In this document: positions 27,504-45,915 of the stretch, in pieces | Position numbering within the stretch: the stretch's first letter is position 1 | How the letters are laid out: each line of letters begins with the position of its first letter | NCBI GenBank assembly: GCA_007096045.1 | Contig: SFAU01000220.1 | Span: forward strand, 1-46,126 | Reading direction: 5' to 3' | Source of the DNA: Microcystis novacekii Mn_MB_F_20050700_S1 | Lineage (GTDB): Bacteria > Cyanobacteriota > Cyanobacteriia > Cyanobacteriales > Microcystaceae | DNA length: 46,126 nucleotides | Translations under genes and position numbers: made by a program | Notes under the pieces: generated by a model | The model's input: only the letters and a program-made list of their open reading frames with translations | Told to the model about the DNA's origin: nothing | Database searches by the model: none

Positions 27504-30500
27504 ATGCCGAAAACTCGAAGCGATAAAATCGCCCATCCTATAGCCGTTGTCGGAATGGGTTGCCATTACCCTGGTGCCAACCAATTAAGCCAACTTTGGG
27601 AGAATATTTTGGCGCGTCGTTGTCAATTTCGCCAGTTTCCCGACCAACGTTTACCACTCTCGGAATATTATGATCCCGATCCCGCCACTCCCGATAAAAC
27701 CTACGGAACACGCGGGGCCTTCATTGATGGCTTTCAATTCGACTGGATTAATCGTCGAGTTCCGAAAAAAACGGTCGATGGAACCGACATCGTGCATTGG
27801 TTAGCCTTAGAAGTAGCCGACAAAGCGATCGAAGATGCTGGGTATCGTCGAGATACCATTCCCACCCAGAAAACCGGGGTCATTCTCGGCAATTCCTTAA
27901 CTGGAGAACATACTCGCTCGAATGTGATGCGGTTACGTTGGCCCTACGTACAAAGAGCCTTGCGAGCTGCTGCCGAAGTCAAAGGACTGTCTGGAACAAT
28001 TGTGGAAGAACTTCTCGAAACAATGGAGAAATTCTATAAATCCGTTTTCCCACCCATTACCGAAGATACCCTTGCCGGAGGACTGTCCAACACCATAGCC
28101 GGACGAATCTGTAACTTTTTTAATTTTGACGGTGGTGGTTATACCGTGGATGGCGCTTGTTCCTCCTCCCTCATCGCCGTTGTCACTGCCGCCAACGCTT
28201 TAAGTAATGGCGATTTAGACATGGCCTTAGCCGGTGGTATTGATATCAGTCTCGATACCTTTGAATTAATTGGTTTCGCCAAAACCGGCGCACTGACGGC
28301 TCAGGATATGAAAGTGTATGATCGCCGAGCCAGTGGTTTTGTTCCTGGAGAAGGATGTGGTTTTGTTGTCCTCAAACGCTTAGAAGATGCCAGAAAAGCG
28401 GGGGATTTTGTTTACGCCATCCTCAAAGGATGGGGAATTTCTTCTGATGGCAAAGGAGGGATTACTGCTCCTTCCAAATTTGGTCAGTCAAAAGCCTTGC
28501 TTCGCGCCTACCAAAAAGCTGGCTATAGCCCTCATACTTTGCATTTTATTGAGGGACATGGAACAGGAACTCCCGTTGGCGATCGCACTGAACTGGAAGG
28601 AATTGCCCTGGCAATGGCAGCAGAGGGAGAAATCGCTCCTCGCTCCTGCGGAGTCACTTCTTTTAAGTCCCTAGTTGGCCATACTAAAGCGGCTGCTGGA
28701 ATCGGAGGTTTGATTAAAGCCGTAATGGCAGTTAATCAACGCATAGTTCCTCCCACTGTCGGTTGTCAAGAGCCTAATTCCATCTTTGAAACTCATGCAC
28801 TCCCTCTCTATCCCATCTTACAAGGGGAAATTCATCAACCAACAACAATTCTCAAAGCTGGTGTATCGGCGATGGGATTTGGCGGCATTAACACCCATGT
28901 AACCCTAATATCTGGTGATGCAGCTTCCCCCCGGTTAAAACCCAGTTTAGACCAGCGTTCGCTTTTAGTCTCCAACCAAGATAGCGAAATCTTTGTCTTC
29001 GGTGCTAATTCTCTTGCCCAACTGCTGGAATCTCTGCAAATTTTCTCAGAACAAGCCAAAGGGATGAGTTTAGCAGACATGGTGGATTTAGCAGCGCAGA
29101 ATGCTCAAAAATTAGCCCCTCAGACTCCAATTCGCGCCGCCATTGTGGCAGAAAACCCCAGAGAATTACTGGAGCGCTTGGAGCATTTAATCAACATTCT
29201 TCACTCTCAACCCCCAGCCACGGGAGAAACATATATATCCCAGCGAAAAGACATCTGGCTCGCCCATCAAGTGCAGCGTTCTCGAGTAGCTTTTCTCTTT
29301 CCAGGACAAGGTTCACAAAAATTGAACATGGCCCGAACTTTAGTGGAGCGATATGCTTGGGCAAGAGAGTTAGTGCAACAGGCCGATTTATGGCTGATTG
29401 AATCTGGTTTTGAACCGATTAGTTCATTAATTTACCGTCCTCTTGACCGCGCTGTCAATCAAAAACAGGTAGAGGAATGGTTTAGTTCTCTTACTTATGT
29501 GGCTCCTCAAGCAATTTGTTTGACTTCTCTATTATGGAAGCATTATCTAATGCGACTTGGGGTAAAACCAGTGGCTTTAGGTGGTCATAGTTTAGGAGAA
29601 TTAACTGCTTTTGAATCGGCTGGTGCTTATGATGAAAAAACCCTCCTTTGCTTTGCCGCAATGCGGGGAAAAGCAATGACAGTTAAGGGCGATTCTATCG
29701 GGACAATGGCCAGTTTAGCTTGTTCATACGCCACAGCACAAAAACTCTTACAAGGGATTTCAGGATATGTAACTGTTGCCAATATTAACAGTCCTAAACA
29801 GACAGTTATTTCTGGAGAAAAGGCTAGTGTTGCTGCTGTTTGTGACCTGGCATTAGCTCAAGAAATTCAAGTCCGTCAACTTCCGGTAGCGAACGCCTTT
29901 CACTCCCAGATGGTGGCGACAGCGGCTGAATATTTGCGACAAGAAGCTCCCATTCCTGAGATTTTAGCACAGGTTTCTCTGCCTCTATTCACCAGCGTTA
30001 ACGGGCAGATAGTTAATTCAGGACTCAACTTAAAAGAACACTTTGCTGATCAGATTGTTGCTCAGGTAAATTTTGTTTCTCTTGTCGAAAATCTGAAGAA
30101 TAAATGTGACTTGATAGTTGAAGTCGGACCGGGTAAAGTGCTTTCTGGTTTAGTGGAAGCAACAGATACTTCTGTCCTCTGTTTTCCCCTAGAGTCAAAA
30201 CCGGGTATCGCTTGCGATTTGAATACTTTTTTAGCCGCATACTTTGTCCAAGGAGGCGAAGTTAACTGGCCAGCTTTGTATGAACAACGACTGGTTCGTC
30301 CTTTTGTTCCTGCTGCTGAACGTCTATTTGTTGATAATCCCTGCGAACGATCTTTTTCAGTATCTCTTGAAGAAATTGAGTCGAGTTCCTCCTTTTCTTG
30401 GGGAGAAATACAACAGTCATCACCAAATCTGGCTCTCGCTCATTCCTCGAATTTTTCCCAACCAGAAAGTTTTGTTGCAGATGATGAACTAACGACAGTC

Positions 30501-30596
30501 TTGGCAAATTACCTGCTGGAACGTGGTTCTTTTCTCTCTGAGTTAATCAGTGCCGATATCCAAAGCTTACCCTTTGTAAACACTCACAATCCCTAG
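27504..30596 (+). CDS. Iterative type I PKS, enediyne-type: ketosynthase-acyltransferase subunit
   Basis: A 1030-residue protein that is the first half of a PksE/PfaA-like synthase. The ketosynthase (about 10-470) has active-site Cys219 in DGACSSS, His352 in EGHGTGT and His393 in GHTKAAAG. The stretches RLRWPYV and TLAGGLSNTIAGRICN are what I remember from enediyne synthase KS domains. The acyltransferase (about 593-900) has FPGQGSQ, catalytic Ser696 in GHSLGE and NAFHS at 798-801, close to the HAFH of malonyl-specific enzymes. The last 40 residues (LTTVLANYLLERGSFLSELI) form a helix repeated at the N-terminus of the next protein. The ATG is preceded by AAGGA. Only 8 nt separate it from the second PKS gene. 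It should extend and hold the growing chain on the partner's ACPs. Confidence 0.9.
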   Translation: MPKTRSDKIAHPIAVVGMGCHYPGANQLSQLWENILARRCQFRQFPDQRLPLSEYYDPDPATPDKTYGTRGAFIDGFQFDWINRRVPKKTVDGTDIVHWLALEVADKAIEDAGYRRDTIPTQKTGVILGNSLTGEHTRSNVMRLRWPYVQRALRAAAEVKGLSGTIVEELLETMEKFYKSVFPPITEDTLAGGLSNTIAGRICNFFNFDGGGYTVDGACSSSLIAVVTAANALSNGDLDMALAGGIDISLDTFELIGFAKTGALTAQDMKVYDRRASGFVPGEGCGFVVLKRLEDARKAGDFVYAILKGWGISSDGKGGITAPSKFGQSKALLRAYQKAGYSPHTLHFIEGHGTGTPVGDRTELEGIALAMAAEGEIAPRSCGVTSFKSLVGHTKAAAGIGGLIKAVMAVNQRIVPPTVGCQEPNSIFETHALPLYPILQGEIHQPTTILKAGVSAMGFGGINTHVTLISGDAASPRLKPSLDQRSLLVSNQDSEIFVFGANSLAQLLESLQIFSEQAKGMSLADMVDLAAQNAQKLAPQTPIRAAIVAENPRELLERLEHLINILHSQPPATGETYISQRKDIWLAHQVQRSRVAFLFPGQGSQKLNMARTLVERYAWARELVQQADLWLIESGFEPISSLIYRPLDRAVNQKQVEEWFSSLTYVAPQAICLTSLLWKHYLMRLGVKPVALGGHSLGELTAFESAGAYDEKTLLCFAAMRGKAMTVKGDSIGTMASLACSYATAQKLLQGISGYVTVANINSPKQTVISGEKASVAAVCDLALAQEIQVRQLPVANAFHSQMVATAAEYLRQEAPIPEILAQVSLPLFTSVNGQIVNSGLNLKEHFADQIVAQVNFVSLVENLKNKCDLIVEVGPGKVLSGLVEATDTSVLCFPLESKPGIACDLNTFLAAYFVQGGEVNWPALYEQRLVRPFVPAAERLFVDNPCERSFSVSLEEIESSSSFSWGEIQQSSPNLALAHSSNFSQPESFVADDELTTVLANYLLERGSFLSELISADIQSLPFVNTHNP

Positions 30597-30604
30597 AGGA
30601 CATT

Positions 30605-33600
30605 ATGACTTATTCTTCTGACTCCAAACCAGTCATTGGCAATCAAGAGATTGTCAAACTTCTCTCCCATTACTTCTCTAACCGAAGCCAGTTTTTGTCC
30701 CAAGTTATCAAAGCAGACCTTCAGTCTTATATTTTGCTTAAAAGTCCAGCAACTAATCTGATTCCCTTTCAAAGCAGTGTTCAGGTAAATAAACCTGTTA
30801 ATAGTAATGGTCATAGCACTGTTAATAGTAATGGTCATAACACTGTTAATAGTAATGGTCATAGCACTGTTAATAGTAATGGTCATAACACTGTTAATAG
30901 CAATGGTCATAACACTGTTAATAGTAATGGTCATAGCACTGTTAATAGTAATGGTCATAGCACTGTTAATAGCAATGGTCATAGCAATGGCAATAGCAAG
31001 GGAATCCCAGAAACAACAGTAATCCAAACCAATTTAACTGTTGAAAAACGTTTAATTGAGTTAGTTGCAGAAAAAACTGGCTATCCAGTAGCCAGCATCA
31101 ATCTTGATGCCAAACTACTAGATGATTTGAATTTAGATTCCATCAAAGCTGGCGAGTTAGTAGCGACAGCCGCCAAAACCTTTGGTGTGAGCGGAAAAAT
31201 TGATCCTTCTGCTTTAGCTAATGCTACTTTACAAGAAGTGAAACAGGCTATTGATGCCATTGTTGCGGTGGGAATGCCGACTGAGATTCCTCAGCAAACA
31301 GAAATTGCGCCGGTGGCTTCCCCGCCTTCAGATTCCCTTGATGTTACCCAAAAATTACTGGAATTAGTCGAAGAAATGACTGGGTTTCCTAAAGATACCC
31401 TCAGCCTCGATCTTCGTCTTCTTGATGATTTAAACCTTGACTCTATTAAAGCAGCCGAGCTAATTGCTACAGCAGTCAAACAAGTGGGAGCAACTGGAAA
31501 ACTAGATCCCTCAGCTTTAGCGAATGGAACTTTGGCGGATGTCATTGCGGCACTGGAGAAGGTATCAAACCAACTCTCTGTCAAAACTGCTACTTCAGAG
31601 AAAACACCAATCCCGCAAGCAAGCCAAAACAATTCTCCCCCGTTTGTCAACTGGGTTCGTAACTACGCCATTGAATACGTCTCTCAACCTCTGACTCCAT
31701 CAACAATTGCCACTGATTGGTCACAAGCTCAAGTCTTAATTGTCTCTGATGTTTTAGACCTGGGGAATCTATCTAATGCTGGTACATCGATTGCTCAAAC
31801 TCTTACCAAGCAATTAGAGCAATTGGGCGCTCAAGTCCAACAAAAGACCTACGCCGAAATTGCAGCGGCAGAACCCGCCAGTATCGGTTCATTCTCCCAC
31901 TATCTAGGGATTTTACCCGATATTTCCCCCTTGCCATCGGAATTACCCCTCGCCGCCATGGTAACTCGCCTCAGCAGCGTTGCTACCATTAGCCACACCA
32001 ATCCCTCGGCAACTTTAGCTTATATTCAATTTGGTGGGGGGCGTTTTGGCACTGGTGAGGGGGAATACCATCCCGAAGTCGCTTCAGCCGCGGCCTTTGC
32101 CCGCAGTGTTCATCTAGAGCGCCAAGAAGCACGAGTCCGGGTAATAGATTTGGCGGCAGAAATTGAACCAACTCAGGCCAGTAAGTTAGTAATTGAGGAA
32201 CTAGCCGGCTCTGAGGCGATTACAACCGTTGGCTATGATGCGACGCAAGTAAGACTAATCCCCCAAGCCCAGTTACAGCAGCCGATTGATTATACGCCCC
32301 GTTCCCTCACCTGGTCAGCCTCAGACGTAATTCTGGTGACAGGTGGAGCCAAGGGAATTACCGCCGAATGCGCTCTGGCCTTAGGACAAAAAACGGGAGT
32401 GAAAATGGCTTTGGTGGGGCGAGCGCCAGCCCCAGAAACCGGAGACAGCAACAGCGAAATTGCCCAAACTCTCAAGCGCTTAGCGGACCTAGGACTCACC
32501 GGTGCTTACTATCGCTGCAATATTGCCAATCCTACCGAGGTCGAGCAGTTAGTTAACCAAGTGACCCAGGAATTAGGACCGATTACAGGGGTAGTTCACG
32601 GAGCCGGACTCAATCAACCCCGTCGCGTCGAACAAGTTAGCCCCCAAGATGCTCAAACAGAAGTCTCACCCAAACTTTTGGGAGCTTACAACTTATTGCA
32701 GGCCTTAGCCTCTAACCCACCCAAGCTCTTTATCGCTTTTAGTTCGATTATCGGCGTTACCGGAATGCCTGGTAATGCTTGGTATGCCTTTGCCAATGAA
32801 TCCCTGTCCTTGCTGTTACAACAGTACCAACGGCAACACCCCCAAACTCAGGTACTTGCGCTTGCTTATAGCGTTTGGGATGAAATCGGTATGGGAGCGC
32901 GTCTTGGCAGTGTCAAGCATCTAGAGCGCATGGGGATCAAGGCGATTGCTCCGAGTGAAGGAGTCAGCCGCTTTCTCAAGCTTTTCCAAAACGCACCCAG
33001 CACTTCACAGGTAGTAATCACTGCTCGCTTGGGTGGCTTAGATACCTGGTTACCAACTCCCTTACCCTCTCCCGCCGGACTGCGCTTTATCGAAAATGTC
33101 CAATATGTGGAACCACAGGTAGCCTTGACCGTGCGGACTCATCTGAGTTTAGGGAAGGATCTCTATGTCAAAGACCACCTTTGGCGCGGTTCTTATTTAT
33201 TCCCCACCGTGTTTGGGTTATGTGCCATGGCCCAAGCTGTAGCTTACCTGACAGGAACCTCAAACCCTCCAATTGTTCGCCTGGAAGATATTTCTCTGCG
33301 ACGACCAATAGTCGTTAATCCAGAGACTGGGGTTGACATTCAAATTGAAGCAGAAATTGCCGAAGCTACCAGCAATGGGGAACGTCGAGTTAAAGTTGGC
33401 ATTTATACCGAGCAAACCGGCTTTTCTCTGGCTCATTTTTCTGCCAATCTCATTCTCGGAGAGTTGACTTCTGCTTCTCAGGAAAAACCCGAATTAGGCC
33501 AACCTCTCCCAATCGCTCCCAAAACTGATCTCTATGGGGATTTACTCTTCCAGGGAGAACGTTTTCAACGCCTGGGTGAAATTTACATCCTTAGTGAAAA

Positions 33601-35770
33601 ACAGAGTGTTTTCCGTTCCCACGCTCAACTTTCTGGAGAAGATTTATCCAATCAAAGCTTTAGCCAGGGATTGAATCACTCCTTAATCCTCGGCGATCCC
33701 TATTTTCGCGATGTCTTGCTCCAATCGGTACAATTGACCATTCCCCAAGATATCTGTTTACCCGTAGAAATTGCCAAGATTGAGCGATTTAAACCAGCCA
33801 GCAGCGATCAAGGTCGCCGCCTTGTCACCGTTAACCTATTGGCGCGGGAAGAGCGGGAGTATATTAGTGAAGTGATTGCTACCGATGAGCAGGGGAACTT
33901 AATTGAACGCTTGAGCGGTTATCGCCTACGGATTCTCGAAGAACACCCAGAAAATCCTACGGCTGCTGAGTTAGGCAATCCCGAAACCCGTGATCGCCAA
34001 CACTTGCGACAAGTGTTACAGACAACTTGTCAGGGATTCGAGATTCCACCGCCTACCGTTGCGCTTGGTTATGCGCCTAACCTGCAAGGGAAATCCTTAG
34101 AACAGCGCCGCCAACAGGAAAAACCCATTGTAGAACGGGCGCTGAAAACTAAGCTAGGACTCAAACCCGAGCAAAAACTTGTTTTCGAGCTTGAGTCTCT
34201 CCCCTCCGGTAAGCCTCAATTGAGCGGGACACAAGTGTCTGGGTTAAATGTTTCTTTATCTCACTGCGATCGCTATTGTCTCTGCACCGTCGCTGAAACC
34301 CCCCAAGGTTGTGATATCGAAGCAATTACCCCTCGGACGGCGGAAGACTGGGTCGCCCTCTTAAGCGATCGCCGTAGTCAACTGATGGAGCAATTAGTGC
34401 GCCAAGGAGACACTCAAGAGCAGGCCGGTATGAGGATTTGGTCAGCCACAGAAGCAGTTCGCAAAGCTTTTAATGGTAGCGACCCGCAGTTTTCTCTAGT
34501 GGCGAAACAAGGGGATGGGGTCTTGTTATCCACCTCAACCCCGGAGGGTGAGTCTCAAGTGCTGACTGTCCCTGTCAAGTTAACCCGCCCACCAGAACGG
34601 ATGGTGGCGATTGTGGTTTCCCACACCCCAGGGTCTGTCCCCACAGAAGCTAATTTCCAGTCTCCTCAAGCAACGGAAGCGGCGATTATCCCAGCGACAC
34701 CGGGGAAAATTGACAGCCATAGCTCTCGCTACACCCATGATGGCCCGCAAGGACAATTAGTCTATGAGCAACGCTATCAAGTCAGTTTCAAAGATAGTGG
34801 TAGCATTAGCCGTCACGTTTACTTTGCCCAATATTTTCGCTGGATTGGCAAAATTCGGGAATTGCCGATGGAAAGCATTGCTCAGCAAATGTTAACGGAC
34901 TTTCTCACCGGAGATTGGGGCATGGTTACCAATTCCGTTAGTTTGCGGGTTGTGGGAGAAGCTACCTCCTATGACGTGATTCAAGCACGAGCCTGGGTGG
35001 GCAATATTGTCGGCTCCTCCTTTGAGACTTACATCGAGTTTTGTAAGGTATTACCCGATAATTCCCTAGAGCGTCTGGCGATTGCCGAAGTTAAAGCCAC
35101 TTGGGTGCGGTTAGTCAGCTATGGAGTTCCTGCTCCCATGCCTTTCCCGCCCTATCTCCAAGACTATTTGGCTCGCTTTGCCGCTGACAAACCCGCCAGC
35201 CTCGATTTAAAACACCCTGAAACCCTGCCGCTGCCTCCTCTACCTGCTAGTTTAGCCTCCTTAGATACTGGTGCCATCATTGATAAAACCCCAGTGCAAG
35301 AAAGTCGTTATGGAAGGCTATTGCGCTCTGAAGTTTTCCAAACCACTCTGGAAGAATCGAATTTAGTTGGTAATGTCTATTACGGCAATTATTTCATCTG
35401 GCAAGGGCGAGTTCTCGACCTATTCCTTTACTCGGTTGCTCCTGAATACCTGCGAGTATCTAACCCTCTCGGTGAAATGGTTTGTTTGTACACCCGTATG
35501 GACTATCTACGGGAAGCGATGCCTTTTGATCGCATTCGCACCCTTCTCTATGTGCGTTCAGTATCCGAGTGTGGCGCATCTTTCAACTTTGAGTTCTTCC
35601 GGGAACAGCCTGATGGCACTTTGGAAAAACTCCATGTCGGTCAACAAGATGTGGCTTGGGTGGAGCGTCAAGAAGATGGAACGGCTGTGGCCGCACCTTG
35701 GCCCGAGGCGGTGAAGCAGTCTTTAGTCGCAAGGGCGACCACCAGGGAAGCGGCTCTGTTAATGGTCTAG
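30605..35770 (+). CDS. Iterative type I PKS, second subunit: ACP-ACP-KR-DH-PPTase-TE-TE
   Basis: A 1721-residue multidomain protein. An N-terminal helix (13-45) copies the end of the KS-AT subunit; a repetitive NSNGHSTV linker follows (66-130). Two ACPs have phosphopantetheine serines at 179 and 280, both in LLDDLNLDSIKA. The ketoreductase (about 570-815) has the NADPH motif VTGGAKGI and active-site AFSS and Y727. The dehydratase (about 840-1115) has its histidine in VKDHLWRGSYLFPTV. A built-in phosphopantetheinyl transferase (about 1170-1340) shows GCDIE and WSATEAVRKAF. Two hotdog thioesterase domains end it: 1385-1510 (RHVYFAQYFRW) and 1568-1690 (NLVGNVYYGNYFIWQGR, very like enediyne E10 thioesterases). 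From ACP to PPTase the order is that of PksE; the tandem ACPs and fused TEs are not usual. Confidence 0.9.
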   Translation: MTYSSDSKPVIGNQEIVKLLSHYFSNRSQFLSQVIKADLQSYILLKSPATNLIPFQSSVQVNKPVNSNGHSTVNSNGHNTVNSNGHSTVNSNGHNTVNSNGHNTVNSNGHSTVNSNGHSTVNSNGHSNGNSKGIPETTVIQTNLTVEKRLIELVAEKTGYPVASINLDAKLLDDLNLDSIKAGELVATAAKTFGVSGKIDPSALANATLQEVKQAIDAIVAVGMPTEIPQQTEIAPVASPPSDSLDVTQKLLELVEEMTGFPKDTLSLDLRLLDDLNLDSIKAAELIATAVKQVGATGKLDPSALANGTLADVIAALEKVSNQLSVKTATSEKTPIPQASQNNSPPFVNWVRNYAIEYVSQPLTPSTIATDWSQAQVLIVSDVLDLGNLSNAGTSIAQTLTKQLEQLGAQVQQKTYAEIAAAEPASIGSFSHYLGILPDISPLPSELPLAAMVTRLSSVATISHTNPSATLAYIQFGGGRFGTGEGEYHPEVASAAAFARSVHLERQEARVRVIDLAAEIEPTQASKLVIEELAGSEAITTVGYDATQVRLIPQAQLQQPIDYTPRSLTWSASDVILVTGGAKGITAECALALGQKTGVKMALVGRAPAPETGDSNSEIAQTLKRLADLGLTGAYYRCNIANPTEVEQLVNQVTQELGPITGVVHGAGLNQPRRVEQVSPQDAQTEVSPKLLGAYNLLQALASNPPKLFIAFSSIIGVTGMPGNAWYAFANESLSLLLQQYQRQHPQTQVLALAYSVWDEIGMGARLGSVKHLERMGIKAIAPSEGVSRFLKLFQNAPSTSQVVITARLGGLDTWLPTPLPSPAGLRFIENVQYVEPQVALTVRTHLSLGKDLYVKDHLWRGSYLFPTVFGLCAMAQAVAYLTGTSNPPIVRLEDISLRRPIVVNPETGVDIQIEAEIAEATSNGERRVKVGIYTEQTGFSLAHFSANLILGELTSASQEKPELGQPLPIAPKTDLYGDLLFQGERFQRLGEIYILSEKQSVFRSHAQLSGEDLSNQSFSQGLNHSLILGDPYFRDVLLQSVQLTIPQDICLPVEIAKIERFKPASSDQGRRLVTVNLLAREEREYISEVIATDEQGNLIERLSGYRLRILEEHPENPTAAELGNPETRDRQHLRQVLQTTCQGFEIPPPTVALGYAPNLQGKSLEQRRQQEKPIVERALKTKLGLKPEQKLVFELESLPSGKPQLSGTQVSGLNVSLSHCDRYCLCTVAETPQGCDIEAITPRTAEDWVALLSDRRSQLMEQLVRQGDTQEQAGMRIWSATEAVRKAFNGSDPQFSLVAKQGDGVLLSTSTPEGESQVLTVPVKLTRPPERMVAIVVSHTPGSVPTEANFQSPQATEAAIIPATPGKIDSHSSRYTHDGPQGQLVYEQRYQVSFKDSGSISRHVYFAQYFRWIGKIRELPMESIAQQMLTDFLTGDWGMVTNSVSLRVVGEATSYDVIQARAWVGNIVGSSFETYIEFCKVLPDNSLERLAIAEVKATWVRLVSYGVPAPMPFPPYLQDYLARFAADKPASLDLKHPETLPLPPLPASLASLDTGAIIDKTPVQESRYGRLLRSEVFQTTLEESNLVGNVYYGNYFIWQGRVLDLFLYSVAPEYLRVSNPLGEMVCLYTRMDYLREAMPFDRIRTLLYVRSVSECGASFNFEFFREQPDGTLEKLHVGQQDVAWVERQEDGTAVAAPWPEAVKQSLVARATTREAALLMV
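30797..30988 (+). repeat. 24-bp minisatellite inside the PKS gene (8 units)
   Basis: Eight contiguous 24-nt units of the form GTTAATAGTAATGGTCATAG plus CACT or AACACT variants encode VNSNGHST or VNSNGHNT. They form a flexible hydrophilic linker before the first ACP. The unit length is a multiple of three, so copy-number changes keep the frame. The opposite strand is also open through the repeat, which is a by-product. Confidence 0.95.
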
Positions 35771-35785
35771 GAAAACCCAATCTGT

Positions 35786-35807
35786 AGGATGGGGGGGAAC
35801 CCATCCT
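35786..35807. repeat. Short hairpin after the PKS genes
   Basis: AGGATGGG (35786-35793) pairs with CCCATCCT (35800-35807), 16 bp after the PKS stop. There is no T-run, so it is more likely an mRNA processing/stability hairpin or a repeat relic than a terminator. Confidence 0.45.
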
Positions 35808-35871
35808 CAGACCAACCTACTGACTAGATTCTGCTTTCTCACTTTTCTCTATCTACCCAGGAAAATTTGTC

Positions 35872-36114
35872 ATGTACAAGCCGAATAAATCATTGAGAAA
35901 CCAACTCCGACTGATCCACATTTTGGCATCACTTCTCTTAGGTATTTTTATCTATTCCCCCTGGCGCAATCATCCAGGAATGCTGATAGCCGTCGGGATT
36001 GTCGTCTTTCCCCTCTTAAGCTTCACTGGACTTTGGATGTGGCAAGGGCGACGCATCGAAAAATGGTTAATGGAGAGCCGAACCATACTTTCCTCAGAGG
36101 ATTCTCCCTCTTAA
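35872..36114 (+). CDS. Small two-helix membrane protein
   Basis: An 80-residue protein with two predicted membrane helices (about 13-29 and 37-57) joined by a short YSPWRNHPG turn, then a basic QGRRIEKW and a polar tail. AGGA lies about 11 nt before the ATG. The spacing and helix pattern recall the last part of PepSY-associated membrane proteins (LLSFTGLWMWQGRR is reminiscent), but this is only a resemblance. Its position between PKS and tailoring genes suggests a part in the same pathway, perhaps holding enzymes at the membrane. Function unknown. Confidence 0.65.
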   Translation: MYKPNKSLRNQLRLIHILASLLLGIFIYSPWRNHPGMLIAVGIVVFPLLSFTGLWMWQGRRIEKWLMESRTILSSEDSPS

Positions 36115-36180
36115 TTGAACTAACTTAACGTAATTCTGGTTCTTCGGTTTGTGTTATGTAATAGACGGGGATTATACGCG

Positions 36181-36324
36181 ATGAAAACCTTTGTGGTTGA
36201 TCTAGAACCAACTAATCAATTAAGTCTCTTGCCAGATCAGGATTTAGTCGATTTATGCCCCCCGATCAAACCAGACCTAGTAACGAAGAACCGTAATTCT
36301 CATCCCTTTATCAGGAGAAATTGA
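36181..36324 (+). CDS. Possible 47-residue peptide gene coupled to the flavoprotein gene
   Basis: An ATG-started frame of 47 codons (MKTFVVDLEPTNQLSLLPDQ at its N-terminus, ending HPFIRRN). Its TGA ends 3 nt before the ATG of the first flavoprotein, whose AGGAG ribosome site lies inside the end of this frame, a layout typical of translational coupling. GGGGA stands 11 nt upstream of its own ATG. The peptide is polar, Asp- and Pro-rich in its middle, with one Cys. It could be a real small protein, a leader peptide controlling the next gene, or chance. I do not recognise it. Confidence 0.4.
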   Translation: MKTFVVDLEPTNQLSLLPDQDLVDLCPPIKPDLVTKNRNSHPFIRRN

Positions 36325-36327
36325 TCA

Positions 36328-38097: not shown

Positions 38098-38122
38098 CGA
38101 TTTCATTCTGGCAATTAAAAAT

Positions 38123-38176
38123 GTAAAATTAAAAATTAGAAATTGTTAGCTTTTCAATTTTTAATTTTTAATTTAC
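38123..38176. repeat. AT-rich inverted repeat between the two flavoprotein genes
   Basis: The arm at 38123-38145 (GTAAAATTAAAAATTAG...) is complementary to 38155-38176 (CAATTTTTAATTTTTAATTT...), with one indel and one mismatch and a 9-nt loop. It may be an attenuating or mRNA-stabilising hairpin between paralogues. Confidence 0.55.
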
Positions 38177-38221
38177 GATCTTCTTTCTTCCATCATTCTC
38201 TCAATTATTAAGGAGTTAACC

Positions 38222-40030
38222 ATGAATTCTACCATTACTCAATCCCGAGAATACGATGTTGTCATTATGGGAGCAGGCTTTGCTGGACTGTGCCAAGCAC
38301 GACATCTCATGCTCAACATCCCTAATATTCGGGTGGCGCTAATCGATCCCCGTCCCGTTGAACGCACAGACAAAGATTTAAAAATCGGTGAGTCTTTAAT
38401 CGAAGTTGCCGCTTTATTTCTCTGCAAAGAATTAGGACTCCACGACTATCTAATCGAAAACCACACTCCCAAATCTGGTCTCAATTTTCACTGGCCTAAA
38501 GATACCTCAAAAACAGCCAGCCTTGACGATTATTATCATGTCTGGGCAAACCGTCAAACTCCAGTGGGATCTTTTCACCTACAACGGGCTAAATTTGAGC
38601 AAGATTTACTGGTGATGAATTGTCAAATGGGAGCCGATTTTTACGAGGGACGGGTCAAAGATGTCGCTCTTACTTCAGGGGATGAGCTAAAAACAGTTTA
38701 CGCTAAAGTTGGCGAGGAAAATATTACCCTTCAAGCCAAGCACGTTATCGATGCCGCAGGACGGAATTTTATTATTGGACGCAAAACTGATAATGTGCTT
38801 TCTGGTCCAGAGAATCTCCTGGGACTTAATAATGGTTCAGCGTGGCTGCGGGTGAAAAATATCGACCGCACGATTTTCCACAGTGGCTATCATCCCGAAG
38901 GTGCATCTACGAGCCATTATTATGCCACCAATCACTATTTTGGCCAGGGTCATTGGTTGTGGATGATTCCGATTGATAAGCACTCGATGGAACTATCTAT
39001 TGGCATTATTCACCATCACGAGGTTATTCCTGCTCATAGCATAAATAACCTTGACAAATTTGCCAATTTTCTCAAGAGCAATCATACTATTCTCTCTCAA
39101 TTGATTGAAAGTGGGGAAGTAGTTGATTTTCATTACTGGCCGAAAATTGCCCACAAAAGCAAAGTTCTTTTTTCTCCTGATAACTGGTACGTTATTGGGG
39201 ATGCTGCCCATATTTTTGATGCTTTTTATTCCTATGGAACGACCATGATCGCTTTTGAGGTAGAAAGTGTTACAGAAATTATCCGGGCTAAATTGGCTGA
39301 GGAAGCAGCAGCAGAACAAAAACGATCCGCTTACAATGATTTCAACCTAGCTTATGCTCGTACTGTTAACTGTCTCTACCGAGATCATGCCTATCAACTC
39401 GGTCATGCTAGTGTTATGAGTTGGCGGATTTATTTCGAGTATATGTGGTGGTTTGGTGTCCATGTTCCCACCTATATTGGTAAATGGCATCTGGACTTAA
39501 ATTTTATCCCCCGCTACGTCAAGATTGCTAATGGAAATGTAGATGGCATTTTCGCTGACTTATGTAAAGAGTTTCATCAATTAGTTGAAGAAGGAGCTAA
39601 TATCGGCTTAATGGATGCCTATCGTGCTGACCAATTATGGGGCAATTATGGGACATTAAAGCACTTTGATGACTTCTTAGAAAATACTAAATTCGAGCCT
39701 CGGCGGTGTAATGTTTTTGCCAGCATGAAAGCTGTTTATTTCTACATCGCTATTTGGTACGCTCTCTTTCAATGGAAAGCTTTTGGCATCGCCGGTTGGT
39801 TAAATCCGAAACATTGGTATTACTTTGGTCGGATGTTGAAGCTATCGATTCAAGCCACAATCGCCGAAGTAATTTATAAGCGCAAAACTCGAGGAATACC
39901 TGACAACACCCAAATTGAAAAAATGCGTGAGGAATTCAAAAACTATCACTATCAACCGCAGAAGAAATCGCCTTCTGTTGTTCAAAATGTGATCAGTGAA
40001 AGAGTAAAAATTGAGTCTTTTCCTGCTTAG
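38222..40030 (+). CDS. FAD-dependent halogenase-like flavoprotein, copy 2
   Basis: A 602-residue paralogue of the preceding protein, alike along its whole length, including GAGFAG, KIGES, GHWLWMIPID, VIGDAA and the altered IFDAFYSYG. AAGGAG precedes the ATG. It has a slightly longer, more divergent C-terminal tail. Tandem duplication followed by divergence is the simplest origin. The pair may act at two positions of one product or form a heteromer. Whether either is a true halogenase or an oxygenase/dehydrogenase cannot be told from sequence alone. Confidence 0.78.
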   Translation: MNSTITQSREYDVVIMGAGFAGLCQARHLMLNIPNIRVALIDPRPVERTDKDLKIGESLIEVAALFLCKELGLHDYLIENHTPKSGLNFHWPKDTSKTASLDDYYHVWANRQTPVGSFHLQRAKFEQDLLVMNCQMGADFYEGRVKDVALTSGDELKTVYAKVGEENITLQAKHVIDAAGRNFIIGRKTDNVLSGPENLLGLNNGSAWLRVKNIDRTIFHSGYHPEGASTSHYYATNHYFGQGHWLWMIPIDKHSMELSIGIIHHHEVIPAHSINNLDKFANFLKSNHTILSQLIESGEVVDFHYWPKIAHKSKVLFSPDNWYVIGDAAHIFDAFYSYGTTMIAFEVESVTEIIRAKLAEEAAAEQKRSAYNDFNLAYARTVNCLYRDHAYQLGHASVMSWRIYFEYMWWFGVHVPTYIGKWHLDLNFIPRYVKIANGNVDGIFADLCKEFHQLVEEGANIGLMDAYRADQLWGNYGTLKHFDDFLENTKFEPRRCNVFASMKAVYFYIAIWYALFQWKAFGIAGWLNPKHWYYFGRMLKLSIQATIAEVIYKRKTRGIPDNTQIEKMREEFKNYHYQPQKKSPSVVQNVISERVKIESFPA

Positions 40031-40217
40031 TAGGAGCGAATAGCTGTCACTGGCGTCAACTTAAGCAAAGCCAAACTATAATCTGTCATGGCGAGACGGC
40101 GTTTTTGTCAATCCCTCCCCTCGCTATGACAATCAAAAAATCATCATTTTTCCTTAATTTGAGACTAATGATGGCTGTTCACCCGTAAAAGTCCTGCTCT
40201 TAGTTGAGGTAATTATC

Positions 40218-40604
40218 ATGGAATTAGCCACCTTTGTCTCATCCCAATTCATCTTAGAGCCTAATGAATTGCGCCGGGGAATTAACCGCATTGGCTTAAA
40301 TCTTTCCGAATCAGAATTCAATGCACTCGTGCAGGGGAACTCAGTTGACTTGGAAGGTAGAGGACTGAGTGAAATTGGCTCAATATTTATCATGGCAGCC
40401 GCTGTTGCTCCACTTAATTTGGGGAAGCCGAGAACCCTGCTCAAGTTTTCTGATTTACCGACTCTTGTTGAGCCAGACATTCCGCCTGAAAATGCTAGTT
40501 GTCCTGGAATTCCAATTTACTGTTGGCTCTCTGACTTAGACAAAAAATGTTGTGTCTATCTTACCTTAACCGATAGTAAACCAGTTCTACAGATCGGCGC
40601 TTAG
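40218..40604 (+). CDS. Hypothetical protein in the PKS locus
   Basis: A 128-residue protein with no signal peptide or membrane helix. The N-terminal part is helical (SSQFILEPNELRRGINRIGL, SESEFNALVQG), followed by a hydrophobic AAAVAPLNLGKP stretch and a C-terminal region with four cysteines (ASCPG, IYCW, KKCCVYLTL). TTGAGG stands 11 nt before the ATG. I do not recognise a family. Its place between flavoproteins and a hydrolase suggests a pathway-specific role. Confidence 0.6.
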   Translation: MELATFVSSQFILEPNELRRGINRIGLNLSESEFNALVQGNSVDLEGRGLSEIGSIFIMAAAVAPLNLGKPRTLLKFSDLPTLVEPDIPPENASCPGIPIYCWLSDLDKKCCVYLTLTDSKPVLQIGA

Positions 40605-40678
40605 TAATCGGTCAGAAAACTGTATTCCAGCAAAGGTGACATCACTAACCTACAATCAGTAATACGGGAGCGAAATCC

Positions 40679-41689
40679 GTGCAATATATATTAAGCGGAC
40701 TACTCGGGTTGACATTCCTTTCAGTGTTCCTTGGCATCATCTATCAAGCGATTGGCACGAAAAGGGATAAGACTAAACACTTGCCGCCAGGTAAGCTCGT
40801 AGAGGTAAAAGGTCGTCAGTTCCACCTTCATTGTACTGGAGAAGGAAGTATCACTGTTGTGATGGACTATGGCATTGGCGGATTGTCTTTAATCTGGAGT
40901 CTAGTTCAGCCAGAAGTCGCCAAATTTGCGAGAGTATGTAGTTATGATCGCGCTGGTTATGGTTGGAGTGAGTCGAGTCAAAGCCCTCGCACTAGCCAGC
41001 AGATGGTGGAGGAACTAAGCGCTTTGCTTGATGAGGCTGGAATAGAGGGGCCGTATATCCTAGTCGGTCATTCCTTGGGGGGACTCAATGCTCGCTTATT
41101 CGCTAGTCAATATCCAGAGAAGGTGGTAGGAATGGTTTTGGTCGATGCTGTTCCAGCGGAGGTTTATTCTCGTCTAAGTCCTGCTTGGCAAGAGGGGATG
41201 AACGGATTGAGAAAGAAATTTACTTCTTTAATCTGGGTTGCTCGACTAGGATTATTACGGCTGTCGCTCCAGCTAAAGGGAGCAGCAGCAGCACCAGATT
41301 TTATCGAAAAGTTACCATTGGAGGTTCAACCGAAAATACTCTCCCAGTTTCTCCCTAAAACCTTTGCTACCGCCATAGCTGAAAATCAATTGATGCAAAG
41401 TAGTGCCGAGCAAGTTTGTCAAGTAGAATTAGTTAAAGATTTACCTTTGGCAGTGCTTTCCCACGGGGTCAATATGTTTGTTGATCTGTCTGTTCGAGAA
41501 CCAGAGCAGGCTGAGTTGATCTGGCAAGAACTGCAAAAATCTACGGCCAACCTCTCTTCTGATAGCACCTTTGAAATCGTTAAATCCAGTGGACACAACA
41601 TTCATATTAATCAGCCCCAAGTGGTAGTCAAAGCGATCCATCAAATCGTCGAAAAATGCCGTTCGAGAGAGCATAAATCTGGAAGCTGA
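40679..41689 (+). CDS. Alpha/beta hydrolase with N-terminal membrane helix
   Basis: A 336-residue protein starting at GTG, with GGGAG 8 nt upstream. An N-terminal helix (4-24) anchors or exports it. The alpha/beta hydrolase fold shows the nucleophile Ser132 in GHSLGG, the CSYDRAGYGWS segment, and the catalytic His in SSGHNIHINQP near the C-terminus. Such enzymes are esterases, lipases or thioesterases. In this locus it could process or release the polyketide, or act on it after export. A general housekeeping esterase is the alternative. Confidence 0.85.
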   Translation: MQYILSGLLGLTFLSVFLGIIYQAIGTKRDKTKHLPPGKLVEVKGRQFHLHCTGEGSITVVMDYGIGGLSLIWSLVQPEVAKFARVCSYDRAGYGWSESSQSPRTSQQMVEELSALLDEAGIEGPYILVGHSLGGLNARLFASQYPEKVVGMVLVDAVPAEVYSRLSPAWQEGMNGLRKKFTSLIWVARLGLLRLSLQLKGAAAAPDFIEKLPLEVQPKILSQFLPKTFATAIAENQLMQSSAEQVCQVELVKDLPLAVLSHGVNMFVDLSVREPEQAELIWQELQKSTANLSSDSTFEIVKSSGHNIHINQPQVVVKAIHQIVEKCRSREHKSGS

Positions 41690-41754
41690 ATAGTCAGTTA
41701 CTCTTGGTTTTGCTCAAAAGTCAAATTATCACCTATGTTCCCAGAAATATTCAG

Positions 41755-42621
41755 ATGAACAACAAATTTTTGCCTCGCCAAAAAGTAACATCCTTCCTTG
41801 GGTTAACAACTCTTTCCCTTCTCAACCTAGCTGTCCCAGTTAAAGCGGCATCACTGCAATGTGATCTAGCCCAAGGAATTTGCCAGAGTGGGATCTATCA
41901 TTTTCAGACTACCGCCAATATTAACGGCGATTTCAATAACCTCAATTTCAGTCCGACACCGATTAATTTTCAAGCGCAACTTGAGGGATTTTCCCGCCTC
42001 ATGGTCGGTACTCCAGTCGATGCTATCGTTGGCGATCCCCTATTAGGAAATGTTGGCAGTGTTGATGGCCAACTTGATGTCATTCCCACTGAATTTTTTG
42101 CCAAATTGAGTGCAGTAAATCCCATTAATTCGTCTCTAAAACTTAATGGCTTAGTGGGTGATAATATTCCTGACTTAGCTCCTAGCCTACCGGAATCTAT
42201 GCTTCCTTATAAATCTTTATACTCAGGGGGAGCGATTATTAAACAATCAACTAATCCTGTTTTAGCTGATAGTTTTTTAACAGTGTTTCTTCAAATCGAC
42301 GGAACCTTATTCGGAGTAGAGCGTGCTTCAATACCAATCACCCTACAACCAGTGTCAACCTTTATTGGGATAATTCCTGGACAATCCATTCAGTATTATA
42401 CCGATCAAGAAATTCCTTTCTTGACCCCTGGGGCTGATGGCATTTTCTGGACCGGTGACGAGCAATTTGAAGGAGCTAGATTGATCCCTCAAGGCGCGAC
42501 GACTCACTCGTTATTACTGACCCTTACACCGATCACTGTCCCAGAGTCTTCTACTGGTTTTGCGTCTACATTAGTTGGCGTTGCCATAATTTTGCTGCTC
42601 TCGAAAAAATCAGGATCATAA
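41755..42621 (+). CDS. Secreted protein with PEP-CTERM-like C-terminus
   Basis: A 288-residue protein. The signal peptide (hydrophobic 12-27, cleavage near PVKA/ASL) is followed by a beta-rich body (GIYHFQTTANINGDF, INFQAQLEGFSRLMVG, LDVIPTEFFAKLS). The end reads VPESS, a hydrophobic helix (TLVGVAIILLL), then SKKSGS, a weakened form of the VPEP-helix-basic PEP-CTERM sorting signal processed by exosortase. ATG 41755 is chosen for the signal peptide; the TTG at 41704 adds 17 unlikely residues. It probably ends up at the cell surface. Its link with the PKS is positional only. Confidence 0.65.
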   Translation: MNNKFLPRQKVTSFLGLTTLSLLNLAVPVKAASLQCDLAQGICQSGIYHFQTTANINGDFNNLNFSPTPINFQAQLEGFSRLMVGTPVDAIVGDPLLGNVGSVDGQLDVIPTEFFAKLSAVNPINSSLKLNGLVGDNIPDLAPSLPESMLPYKSLYSGGAIIKQSTNPVLADSFLTVFLQIDGTLFGVERASIPITLQPVSTFIGIIPGQSIQYYTDQEIPFLTPGADGIFWTGDEQFEGARLIPQGATTHSLLLTLTPITVPESSTGFASTLVGVAIILLLSKKSGS

Positions 42622-42690
42622 GTCAGTAAATAACGTCTTGGCTACTGGACGGAACAGTATTACTTTTAGACAACCCTCACAAAGTATGTC

Positions 42691-44007
42691 ATGAAATCTC
42701 CACTTTTTGTGAAACCAACTAATTGGCTTCTTATTACCTGTCTCACCATCGGGACTATGGCAACTGGCGCTGTAGCGACCTATTCAATTTGGCACTATCA
42801 ATCTTCAAAAATAACATCCCCGGCTGCGGCCTCAACTACTCCGAGACAACTGCAAGCCGTGGCTGCTTTGGGCTATGTAGAACCCGCTGGAGAAGTGATC
42901 AAAATTTCGGCTCCTGCTGTTGTGGAAGGGGCACGCATTGATAAACTTTTAGTCAAACAGGGTGATCGGGTTGAAGTTGGACAAGTATTGGCTGTACTCG
43001 ACAGTCGAGACAGACTTCAAGCAGCACTTGAACAAGCAGAAAATCAAGTTCGCATTGCCAAATCCCGTTTAGCTCAGGTCAAAGCAGGGGCCAAACAAGG
43101 GGATATTATTGCCCAAAACGCTAGATTTGAAGGTGTCAGGGCCGAACTAGAAGGACAAATTACCACCCAAAAAGCCACCATTGCCAGTTTGACGGCTCAA
43201 TTACAAGGGGAAAAAACGGCTCAATACGCTACTATTGAACGCCTGAAAGCTGAGTTTAACAATGCCCAAAAAGATTGTCAGCGCTATCACTATCTATCCC
43301 AACAAGGTGCGGTTTCAGACCAAGACCGAGATCGCTTCTGCTTGATAGCTCAAACCAGCAAGGAAAGCCTACGAGAAGCCAACGCTAATTTGAATCTTAT
43401 TGTCACTACTCTAGCCGCAAAAATTGATGAAGCTAGAGCTAATCTTGAGCGGACGGTGGCAACTTTAGATAAAAAAATCAAGGAAAACCAGGCCACTTTT
43501 GATTCAGTCGCTGAAGTGCGTCCTGTAGATGTTCAAGTGGCTCAATCAGAATTAATGGCGGCTCAAAGTGCTGTGAAAAAAGCTAAAGCTGATTTGGATT
43601 TAGCTTCAGTCAAAGCTCCTCAAGCAGGACAAATTCTTAAAATTCATACTTGGACTGGGGAATTGATTGGTGATCAAGGAATACTCGACCTAGGACAGAC
43701 TAGCCAAATGTACGTCAACAGCGAAGTTTACGAAACAGATGTCAGTCGGGTTAAACTAGGACAACGGGCAAAAATTACTACCGATGGAATGATTGGAGAA
43801 TTAAGGGGAACTGTCGCTGAAATTGGCTTACAAATTGGCAAAAAAGATGTCTTGGGTACTGACCCAGTTGCTGATGCAGATGCGCGAGTTGTCGAAGTTA
43901 AAATTCGTCTCGATCCCTCTTCTAGCAAACGAGTGGCTGGCTTGACTAATTTACAAGTTAATGTAGTGATTGATACTACTAAAACTCTTCTGAAAAAGGA
44001 CGGATGA
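42691..44007 (+). CDS. devB: DevB-like membrane fusion protein of an ABC exporter
   Basis: A 438-residue HlyD-type periplasmic adaptor. It has one N-terminal membrane helix (12-32), the lipoyl/barrel-sandwich halves ALGYVEPAGEVIKISAPAVV ... GDRVEVGQVLAVLDSRD and ASVKAPQAGQILKIHTWTGE, a long alpha-hairpin coiled coil between (about 108-300), and a beta-barrel C-terminus. It joins the DevC/DevA inner-membrane pump to a TolC-like channel. Its stop is 6 nt before devC. DevBCA systems export heterocyst glycolipids in Anabaena; non-heterocystous cyanobacteria use relatives for other lipids or metabolites. Confidence 0.88.
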   Translation: MKSPLFVKPTNWLLITCLTIGTMATGAVATYSIWHYQSSKITSPAAASTTPRQLQAVAALGYVEPAGEVIKISAPAVVEGARIDKLLVKQGDRVEVGQVLAVLDSRDRLQAALEQAENQVRIAKSRLAQVKAGAKQGDIIAQNARFEGVRAELEGQITTQKATIASLTAQLQGEKTAQYATIERLKAEFNNAQKDCQRYHYLSQQGAVSDQDRDRFCLIAQTSKESLREANANLNLIVTTLAAKIDEARANLERTVATLDKKIKENQATFDSVAEVRPVDVQVAQSELMAAQSAVKKAKADLDLASVKAPQAGQILKIHTWTGELIGDQGILDLGQTSQMYVNSEVYETDVSRVKLGQRAKITTDGMIGELRGTVAEIGLQIGKKDVLGTDPVADADARVVEVKIRLDPSSSKRVAGLTNLQVNVVIDTTKTLLKKDG

Positions 44008-44013
44008 TCTGTC

Positions 44014-45192
44014 ATGAAACTATCTAGATGGAAATTGCCAACAGCTTGGTTACAACTACGCCACCAAAAAACTCGGTTGCTGGTTGCTCTCTCAGGTGTT
44101 ATTTTTGCAGTTGTCATTGTCTTCATGCAGTTGGGGATTCGCGATGCTTTATTTGATAGTGCCGTTCGTTTCCATCAAAGTTTACAAGGAGATATTTTTT
44201 TAATTAGTCCTCGATCGACTGCCTTAATTGCGATGGAAAGTTTCCCAGAACGACGACTTTTACAATCACTTGCTTTTGATGAAGTCGATTACGTTAGCCC
44301 GATTTATCTCGATTTCGCTCAATGGAAAAATCCTAATACTCGTAATTATTGGCGTAATATTTTTGTCCTTGGTATTAATCTGAGATATCCCGTACTCAAC
44401 TTATCTGGAATTAACGAAAATATCGAGAGATTAAAAATGCCTAATACAGTATTATTTGATGAGGGGTCTCGTACTGAATTCGGGACAATTGCCGAAGATT
44501 TTCGCAGGGATGGACGGGTAAGCACAGAGTTAGGAAATCCCAACGGGAATCGAAAGGTTAATGTGGTGGGTTTATTTCAGTTGGGTACTTCCTTTGGAGC
44601 CGATGGAAATTTAGTGACTAGCTATACAAATTTTTTACGAATTTTTGACAATCGCAAAAAAGGCTTCATTGATGTGGGTTTGATTAAACTAAAACCAAAT
44701 CAAGATACTCAAAGAACCCTAGAAAAACTCAGAAAATACTTGCCAAAAGATGTTCGAGTGTTGTCGAAAAGCGAATTGATTAACTTTGAAAAAAAATATT
44801 GGCAAACTAGCACGGCGATCGGGTTTATTTTTAACCTAGGAGTTGCTCTAGGAATTATTGTTGGTGTGGTGGTGGTTTATCAAATTCTCTATACCAATGT
44901 TTCGGAACATCTTTCAGAATACGCCACCCTAAAAGCGATGGGCTATCGTCATAGCTATCTCTTATCAATGGTTTTACAACAGGCTTTTTTAATTGCTATT
45001 CTCGGATATATTCCTGGTTTTTTGATCGCTAATATTCAATATGAGTTGACTAAAAATGCCACCTTATTACCTGTCAATATGTCGCTTGATCGAGCGGTTT
45101 TTGTCTTTATCTTAACCTTAGTCATGGCCTTCGTTTCAGGAGCCACTGCTGTTAAAAAATTGCAAGATGCCGATCCAGCCGATATTTTTTAG
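44014..45192 (+). CDS. devC: DevC-like ABC exporter permease
   Basis: A 392-residue MacB/FtsX-type permease. One helix near the N-terminus (about 23-43) is followed by a large periplasmic domain (45-265) and three C-terminal helices (about 268-290, 315-340, 355-378), the family topology. The ending AVKKLQDADPADIF is typical of DevC proteins. It lies between devB and devA, all on one strand, so the transporter is complete. Confidence 0.88.
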   Translation: MKLSRWKLPTAWLQLRHQKTRLLVALSGVIFAVVIVFMQLGIRDALFDSAVRFHQSLQGDIFLISPRSTALIAMESFPERRLLQSLAFDEVDYVSPIYLDFAQWKNPNTRNYWRNIFVLGINLRYPVLNLSGINENIERLKMPNTVLFDEGSRTEFGTIAEDFRRDGRVSTELGNPNGNRKVNVVGLFQLGTSFGADGNLVTSYTNFLRIFDNRKKGFIDVGLIKLKPNQDTQRTLEKLRKYLPKDVRVLSKSELINFEKKYWQTSTAIGFIFNLGVALGIIVGVVVVYQILYTNVSEHLSEYATLKAMGYRHSYLLSMVLQQAFLIAILGYIPGFLIANIQYELTKNATLLPVNMSLDRAVFVFILTLVMAFVSGATAVKKLQDADPADIF

Positions 45193-45240
45193 AAGAAAGA
45201 AACAGATATCCATCCCTCATCTCAATGAACGAGGCTGTCT

Positions 45241-45915
45241 ATGGACGTTATTGATATTCAAAACCTCAATCACTATTTCGGCCAAGGAACGCTGAAAAAA
45301 CAAGTTCTTTTTCAGATAAACTTAAAAATTACAGCCGGAGAGATCGTTATTTTAACTGGCCCTTCTGGTTCCGGAAAAACAACCTTACTATCCTTAATCG
45401 GTGGCCTACGCTCTGTTCAAGAAGGAAGCTTACAGCATTTTGAAAAAGAATTACAGGGGGCTAGTGAAGAACAATTAGTCCAAACCCGCCGTCAAATTGG
45501 TTATATTTTTCAAGCCCATAATTTGTTACCCTTTCTAACCGCAAGACAGAATGTACAAATGTCGATCGAGCTTCAGGAAAATCTCGGCGGGCGGGAAGCG
45601 GAAGAACGGGCCGCTTTGATATTAGAAGAAGTCGGCTTAGGACATCGGATCGACTATTATCCAGATAGCCTATCTGGGGGACAAAAACAAAGGGTAGCGA
45701 TCGCGCGAGCTTTGGCCAGTAATCCTCCATTAGTTTTAGCCGATGAACCAACGGCCGCCCTCGATAGTAAAACGGGACGAGACGTGGTGAATTTGATGCA
45801 ACGTTTAGCCAAAGAACATAGACGTACTATTGTACTCGTCACCCACGATAATCGGATTTTAGATATTGCTGATCGCATTGTTCACATGGAAGATGGACGC
45901 TTGTGCGGTTGCTAA
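45241..45915 (+). CDS. devA: DevA-like ABC exporter ATPase
   Basis: A 224-residue ATPase with Walker A GPSGSGKTT, Q-loop YIFQAHNLLP, signature LSGGQKQR, Walker B LVLADEPTAALD and H-loop VTHD. The sequence is of the MacB/LolD/DevA group that powers FtsX-like permeases. It is the last gene of the + strand locus and is followed by a probable terminator. Confidence 0.9.
   Translation: MDVIDIQNLNHYFGQGTLKKQVLFQINLKITAGEIVILTGPSGSGKTTLLSLIGGLRSVQEGSLQHFEKELQGASEEQLVQTRRQIGYIFQAHNLLPFLTARQNVQMSIELQENLGGREAEERAALILEEVGLGHRIDYYPDSLSGGQKQRVAIARALASNPPLVLADEPTAALDSKTGRDVVNLMQRLAKEHRRTIVLVTHDNRILDIADRIVHMEDGRLCGC

Follow-up and report, generated by a model that had tools for sequence, protein, structure and literature searches.

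A split PksE-type polyketide synthase cluster in Microcystis with a duplicated linker element, tandem thioesterases and a DevBCA exporter

What might a bloom-forming cyanobacterium make with an enediyne-type polyketide synthase (PKS) that is encoded in two pieces and accompanied by halogenase-like flavoproteins and an exporter? The question is raised by 46,126 nucleotides from Microcystis novacekii Mn_MB_F_20050700_S1 (contig SFAU01000220.1), hereafter the window, which is one whole contig (G000:C136) of a Microcystis-group genome. The assembly is 99.8% complete, and the contig ends just past the genes in question. Positions 27504-45915 hold eleven genes, all on the plus strand, which form one accessory cluster. 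A previous reading made from the letters alone (the sequence-only reading) saw here a complete-looking path from chain building to export on one strand. The open reading frame (ORF) coordinates and the Pfam and NCBIfam searches of the window ORFs, from which our domain calls are taken, bear this out; all genes it named are present, but three conserved ones (80, 128 and 305 aa) had been overlooked. On balance we lean, by a little, towards a conserved and probably functional cluster for a secreted lipid-like polyketide, operating by the mechanism proposed below.

Homology and domain order place the core in the PksE (enediyne-type) family of iterative type I PKSs. The first protein (27504-30596, plus strand, 1030 aa) is the ketosynthase-acyltransferase (KS-AT) half, 40% identical to SgcE of the C-1027 pathway over 1017 aa. 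The second half, PKS2 (30605-35770, plus strand, 1721 aa), was read from Pfam/NCBIfam matches, motifs and the SgcE alignment as two acyl carrier proteins (ACP), a ketoreductase (KR), a dehydratase (DH), a phosphopantetheinyl transferase (PPTase) and two thioesterases (TE), in the order ACP-ACP-KR-DH-PPTase-TE-TE. Its KR, DH and PPTase align with SgcE at 34%, 32% and 34% identity (the PPTase over 89 aa), and the order KS-AT-ACP-KR-DH-PPTase is collinear with SgcE, with a split after the AT and a second ACP added. The PPTase gave no Pfam hit and is assigned from the alignment to the end of SgcE and from the motifs CDIE and WSATEAVRKAF, and no enoyl reductase (ER) was found in the synthase. The PDB sequences nearest to the second TE are of the CalE7/DynE7 type, CalE7 itself and an ACP-polyene thioesterase being named, and the ACP is nearest to CalE8.

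A KS phylogeny, which the sequence-only reading had suggested as a check, points the same way. In a KS-AT tree of 62 rows, built by a quick method without bootstrap and with long-branch warnings, the window sits in a clade of 32 rows (clade A; SH-like approximate likelihood ratio test, SH-aLRT, 99). This clade lies within a 50-row PksE group (SH-aLRT 100), together with 13 rows of a second cyanobacterial clade (clade B), four actinobacterial PksE and one Sinorhizobium sequence; duplicate loci of one genome, L006 and the truncated L043 are left out. The group is separate from the PfaA/HglE KSs of polyunsaturated fatty acid (PUFA) and heterocyst glycolipid (Hgl) synthases and from modular KSs. 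Moreover, against TIGR02813 (the PUFA synthase PfaA) the window scores 434.8 bits, below the cut-off of 1010.1, and on this score and the tree we rejected a PUFA/Hgl synthase. The SgcE alignment and the tree thus uphold the split enediyne-type iterative synthase that had been claimed. A cyanobacterial enediyne clade of KSs was reported earlier (Calteau 2014, PMC4247773, in the part available), and a second study typed as enediyne the KS of a PKS that came from a lake metagenome and shares 64% identity with M. aeruginosa (PMC5826242).

Does a PksE-type core make this an enediyne locus proper? We rejected that candidate. DUF1702 (UnbL-type) has no match in the window's own genome at E 0.01; UnbV (PF07593) has none there either, with matches in two of the seven genomes searched (G557 and G600). 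A search of the window and all clade-A loci for UnbU (RnfD-like) found no match, and nine of the 13 clade-B loci have one beside them. Because UnbV and DUF1702 are absent from the genome, the cluster is not an enediyne locus as defined. A true nine- or ten-membered enediyne pathway, with the missing warhead genes elsewhere in the genome, could appeal to the PksE homology and to the DUF1702 genes that adjoin clade-A PKSs in at least 11 of 33 loci (gene counts over these 33 loci are lower bounds, several loci being cut off by a contig end or by the extent of sequence retrieved). We regard it as very improbable all the same, given that both absences hold for the whole of a nearly complete assembly, that no UnbU relative was found in the window or any clade-A locus, and that clade A is a KS clade separate from actinobacterial PksE. 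Elsewhere in the genus, contig C15 of Microcystis G557 (L061/L115/L116, about 7-24 kb) encodes in one direction a clade-B PksE (1979 aa), a UnbU-like protein, a CalE7-type TE, DUF1702 and UnbV, so that all five genes of the enediyne-type set occur together in a cyanobacterium; beside its clade-B PKS, Gloeothece G600 carries UnbV, a TE and a UnbU-like gene.

How, then, could a synthase cut after its AT work as one? The last 30-odd residues of KS-AT resemble the start of PKS2 (score 66, against 37 for the best of 500 shuffles). Self-comparison, profile search and charge define a 32-aa linker element, with a C-terminal copy in KS-AT (30477-30572, plus strand) and an N-terminal copy in PKS2 (30638-30733, plus strand). 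When the window and the loci, in 15,129 six-frame segments, were searched with a profile of the element, all 56 matches fell in clade-A PKS proteins; 30 of these copies built the profile, so that their scores are not independent, and the loci share descent. Across four whole genomes no other site appeared at E <0.1. All 21 readable split loci carry the element on both sides of the break (L043, truncated, and L044, with the element only on its second piece, are left out). It is single, in the AT-ACP linker, in eight of the ten loci with AT and ACP on one chain (L016, which has a stop upstream in frame, L017, L020, L034-L039 and L045), and absent from the unsplit loci L039 and L020. Two Dolichospermum-type loci that are divided further (L024, L048) have a third copy, but breaks ahead of a free PPTase lack the element (L033).

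The two ends differ in charge. The 21 C-terminal copies are acidic (net charge -4 to -8, mean -5.0) and the 24 N-terminal copies neutral (-2 to +2, mean +0.2), with seven single copies intermediate (0 to -4); L094 and L101, which are copies, are left out of this analysis, and L016 is set apart from the seven. Position 22 of the element is Glu or Asp in 20 of 21 C-terminal copies and Gln or Lys in 23 of 24 N-terminal ones. The paired terminal elements therefore look like a docking pair, with the acidic copy as proposed tail and the neutral copy as proposed head. Close behind the head, an in-frame 24-bp tandem repeat of eight units (30795-30986, plus strand; Tandem Repeats Finder) encodes an NSNGH-type linker ahead of the first ACP. 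PKS2 measures 1721, 1697, 1720 and 1673 aa in different strains, consistent with a change in repeat number.

The two hotdog thioesterases named in the sequence-only reading exist as two 4HBT_2 stretches, but they are fused to PKS2 and are not separate genes. Stand-alone TEs of this kind, in 11 of 11 clade-B cases and in four actinobacterial loci, keep both residues aligned with Asn19 and Arg37 of CalE7, which we take to be the catalytic ones. In the fused pair the two seem to be divided. TE1 (34814-35314, limits approximate, plus strand; alignment) keeps the Arg37 equivalent and has no Asn at the Asn19 position, and TE2 (35342-35767, plus strand; PDB sequence matches and residue alignment) keeps the Asn and has Leu for the Arg. 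The TE2 pattern recurs in 12 of 12 rows at least 59% identical to the window, and the Arg of TE1 is kept in five of five aligned rows. The Asn position of TE1 is covered in two of these five, both with Ser (L026 and L027 are uncovered there), and the Gly of the window comes from a separate HMMER alignment. Judged from these residues, the pair may share one active site or may be inactive. The pattern is different in other clade-A pairs: L019 and L042 retain both residues in the first copy, with Asp replacing Asn in the second.

Downstream lie the flavoproteins FAD1 (36328-38097, plus strand, 589 aa; PDB sequence matches and a structure model) and FAD2 (38222-40030, plus strand, 602 aa; Pfam and motif alignment), the latter a separate old paralogue of the former. 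Both are Trp_halogenase-like in the Pfam search, and all 14 PDB sequence matches of FAD1 are flavin-dependent halogenases, several of them mutants of one enzyme. GxGxxG is present in both as GAGFAG and WxWxIP as WLWMIP, and the tunnel lysine K82 aligns with K91 of the 3I3L CmlS chain, presumably the catalytic Lys of CmlS, and is kept in 35 of 35 rows. The halogenase motif Fx.Px.Sx.G (PMC8407142, in the part available) reads IFDAFYSYG in both proteins, with Ala for Pro and the Phe displaced; Ala replaces Pro in 18 of the 35 rows, the window proteins among them. Since this motif is changed, halogenase activity as predicted for FAD1 and FAD2 is not secure. They may instead be polyene oxygenases, epoxidases or reductases on a halogenase scaffold, the product being an oxidized, non-halogenated polyene lipid. 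The altered motif would fit this, as would matches to the LodB/GoxB/QhpG and geranylgeranyl-reductase families (E 1e-10 or better, far under their cut-offs) and fold scores of the FAD1 model close to p-hydroxybenzoate hydroxylase (PHBH)-type hydroxylases. Set against the retained WxWxIP and K82, and against significant PDB sequence matches that are all halogenases, we treat it as a tentative minority option. The sequence-only reading was right that two halogenase-like flavoproteins are present, but "twin" describes a derived state: three old paralogous lines exist, of which the window carries two. A remnant of the third was sought in a 213-bp gap and none was found; the gap matches the leader of the G578 copy at 99% identity, so the third gene is cleanly missing from the window.

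Export was predicted on the basis of DevB, DevC and DevA, and all three subunits pass their curated cut-offs: the DevB membrane fusion protein (42691-44007; TIGR02971, 350.8 bits against 129), the DevC permease (44014-45192; TIGR01185, 524.6 against 290.35) and the DevA ATPase (45241-45915; TIGR02982, 369.1 against 295.8), each on the plus strand. DevBCA is the exporter family of heterocyst glycolipids, and its presence lends something to the idea of a structural product, a glycolipid-like lipid comparable to those of the heterocyst envelope. Heterocyst glycolipid loci share this exporter with the window and differ from it in KS clade, TEs and flavoproteins. With the KS outside the Hgl/PfaA clade, a TIGR02813 score of 435 bits (cut-off 1010), none of the eleven genes matching a glycosyltransferase and an accessory distribution within Microcystis, we consider that idea improbable.

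The remaining genes, all on the plus strand, are an alpha/beta hydrolase (40679-41689; Pfam) and the three overlooked ones. The 80-aa protein (35872-36114), hydrophobic by eye, has relatives (50-61% identical) in the corresponding position in Gloeothece, contig L113 and Phormidium. The 128-aa protein o128 (40218-40604) has relatives in ten of the 33 clade-A loci, the window counted, and no convincing fold match (model pLDDT 73, best Foldseek E 1.1). The 305-aa protein (41704-42621) had no Pfam match; its relatives are 36-78% identical and its C-terminus resembles a PEP-CTERM-type sorting tag by eye. A promoter and terminator search over the operon returned the same counts as shuffled sequence.

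Is the cluster whole, and is it maintained? Of eight Microcystis genomes without a cluster at this site, seven have 86-161 bp between the matches to gcvT and the NFACT gene, and one is interrupted there by the end of a contig. Carriers have gcvT as left neighbour (the window, L009 and L010) and NFACT as right neighbour (G355, G578 and G235). In the window gcvT occupies 25624-26730 on the plus strand, outside the island, and the last 41 bp (46086-46126) match the sequence that immediately precedes NFACT in four genomes lacking the cluster. Because gcvT and NFACT adjoin in cluster-free genomes and flank the carriers, and because these 41 bp match, the cluster is one accessory island, whole within this contig. 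KS-AT orthologues (91-97% identical) occur in three of 11 other genomes of the genus examined, each surrounded by the cluster; the closest named relative is the locus of M. aeruginosa L009, with a KS-AT 97% identical. The active-site motifs are intact (KS Cys/His/His, AT Ser, the Ser of both ACPs, KR Tyr and DH His), and the ratio of nonsynonymous to synonymous divergence (dN/dS) stays under 0.45 for each of the 11 genes in every comparison that allowed its computation. The cluster is conserved and, by these signs, probably functional. Divergence from other Microcystis copies is uneven: it is higher across 40679-45192, over the hydrolase, the 305-aa gene, devB and devC (devC dS 0.8-1.0; hydrolase 54-91% identical), and lower for the PKS genes (dS 0.08-0.32) and devA (dS 0.09-0.14). 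Because these four genes diverge more than the PKS genes or devA, the cluster is, on such values, a mosaic.

On a wider scale, 35 of 388 genomes of the order encode a clade A or B PKS (E 1e-150); clade A is present in 25 and clade B in 13, three genomes having both. In a phylum sample such PKSs were found in nine of 386 genomes. The flavoprotein family (E 1e-100) is found in 25 of the 388, and 17 of these also have a clade-A KS (Fisher p 5e-18, relatedness ignored). Two of the eight flavoprotein genomes lacking clade A have the family beside a PKS2-like TE at a contig end (L112) or on a short contig with no PKS (L111), and in the other six (L105-L110) it adjoins modular-type PKSs, three with a PfaA-like KS in view, so the family seems to serve two kinds of synthase. 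Among the 33 clade-A loci at least 22 have the flavoproteins, at least 17 a complete DevBCA, at least 10 o128 and at least seven a carotenoid oxygenase. Contig L113 (G405) repeats the order of the window from PKS2 to devA, with three flavoproteins. Loci L033-L037, L040, L042, L114 and others combine a PksE-like PKS and these flavoproteins with one to three DUF1702 genes, and some such relatives also carry aldehyde dehydrogenase and carotenoid oxygenase (RPE65 family) genes. The sole non-cyanobacterial member found is L020, from a Candidatus Omnitrophica metagenome-assembled genome, with a clade-A PKS at 50% identity that reflects transfer or a mis-binned contig. In Dolichospermum-type loci (L023 10714, L024 10714, L047 1015 and L048 1091, the last two reverse-complemented) a poly-G tract that varies in length between genomes (7, 11, 7 and 10 residues, respectively) throws the KS gene out of frame, and the rest of the loci is conserved; L023 and L047 seem to represent one and the same record. 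The cause may be phase variation, slippage or an error of assembly.

Has such a cluster been seen before? As described in the available parts of two papers, M. aeruginosa PCC 7806 has an orphan iterative PKS of PksE-like type whose tailoring enzymes number three halogenases among them (Frangeul et al. 2008, PMC2442094), later listed as the orphan 'PKSI iterat' and complete in two of 12 strains (Humbert et al. 2013, PMC3741299). Both are Microcystis clusters in which halogenase genes accompany a PksE-like iterative PKS, and neither has a known product; they differ in halogenase number (three against two) and size (15.2-16.1 kb against 18.4 kb), and from these descriptions we provisionally equate them. 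The cluster is thus of a known orphan kind, not an unseen one. The sequence-only reading called it uncharacterised-looking, which holds insofar as we found no known product, but its kind had already been described. In the open-licence literature, with most matches judged from listings, no paper linking the cluster to a product was found, and none on Prochloron kps. The C-1027 cassette of Streptomyces globisporus (SgcE; plasmid NZ_CP013739) shares the KS-AT-ACP-KR-DH-PPTase order and a CalE7-type hotdog TE. Unlike it, the window has a split protein, two ACPs, two fused TEs, halogenase-like enzymes and DevBCA, with no DUF1702 or UnbV in its genome and no UnbU relative in the window. A plasmid locus of Gloeothece verrucosa PCC 7822 (L084) is syntenic with the window in its split PKS (KS-AT 65% identical), small ORF, flavoproteins, o128, hydrolase and DevBCA; it differs in having three flavoproteins, an extra carotenoid oxygenase and the opposite order of the hydrolase and 305-aa-type genes. 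Finally, the available parts of two sources describe hybrid PKS-NRPS-PUFA, or Type G, clusters in Microcystis (Shulse & Allen 2011, PMC3098273; JACS Au 2026, PMC13291983), and we take the six flavoprotein loci beside modular-type PKSs to be of that type. Membership of the window in Type G was rejected: those six have modular KSs, PfaA-like in three, and not PksE. What is new here is the split architecture with its duplicated linker, the TE residue pattern, the borders and the wider family.

We propose that the two PKS proteins would act as one iterative PksE-type synthase, held together by matched terminal elements derived from one linker element through duplication. The chain would be a conjugated polyene, because KR and DH are present and no ER was found; a polyene would also fit the carotenoid-oxygenase-type genes of at least seven of the 33 loci. 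The fused hotdog pair would release the chain, FAD1 and FAD2 would oxidize it, the reaction probably being halogenation on the carrier protein, a trimming or transfer step might fall to the alpha/beta hydrolase, and DevBCA would export the product. The product is likely an exported, possibly halogenated polyene, which is an inference, as are docking, halogenation, the order of the steps and the cargo of the exporter; homology, domain order, active-site motifs, synteny, selection and the duplicated linker with its charge difference were observed directly. A bolder and, in our view, doubtful extension would see a separate cyanobacterial branch of multi-protein enediyne synthases. Here fission would have been repaired by linker duplication, with acidic tail docking to neutral head, and the tandem TE would be a pseudo-heterodimer with one shared active site. 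Halogenase-type flavoproteins would replace UnbL/V/U and install, perhaps also eliminate, a halogen on the ACP-bound polyene, giving exported halo-polyenes or alkynes.

In conclusion, the cluster now has exact borders, a family tree and a conserved part list, together with two testable mechanistic features, the paired linker elements and the complementary TE residues. A natural docking pair of such wide conservation would be a useful engineering part for iterative PKSs. According to the available part of a 2026 review, the MIBiG entries of Microcystis are cyanopeptides, some of its PKS clusters are transcribed in blooms, and its PKS products are largely uncharacterised (PMC12838216).

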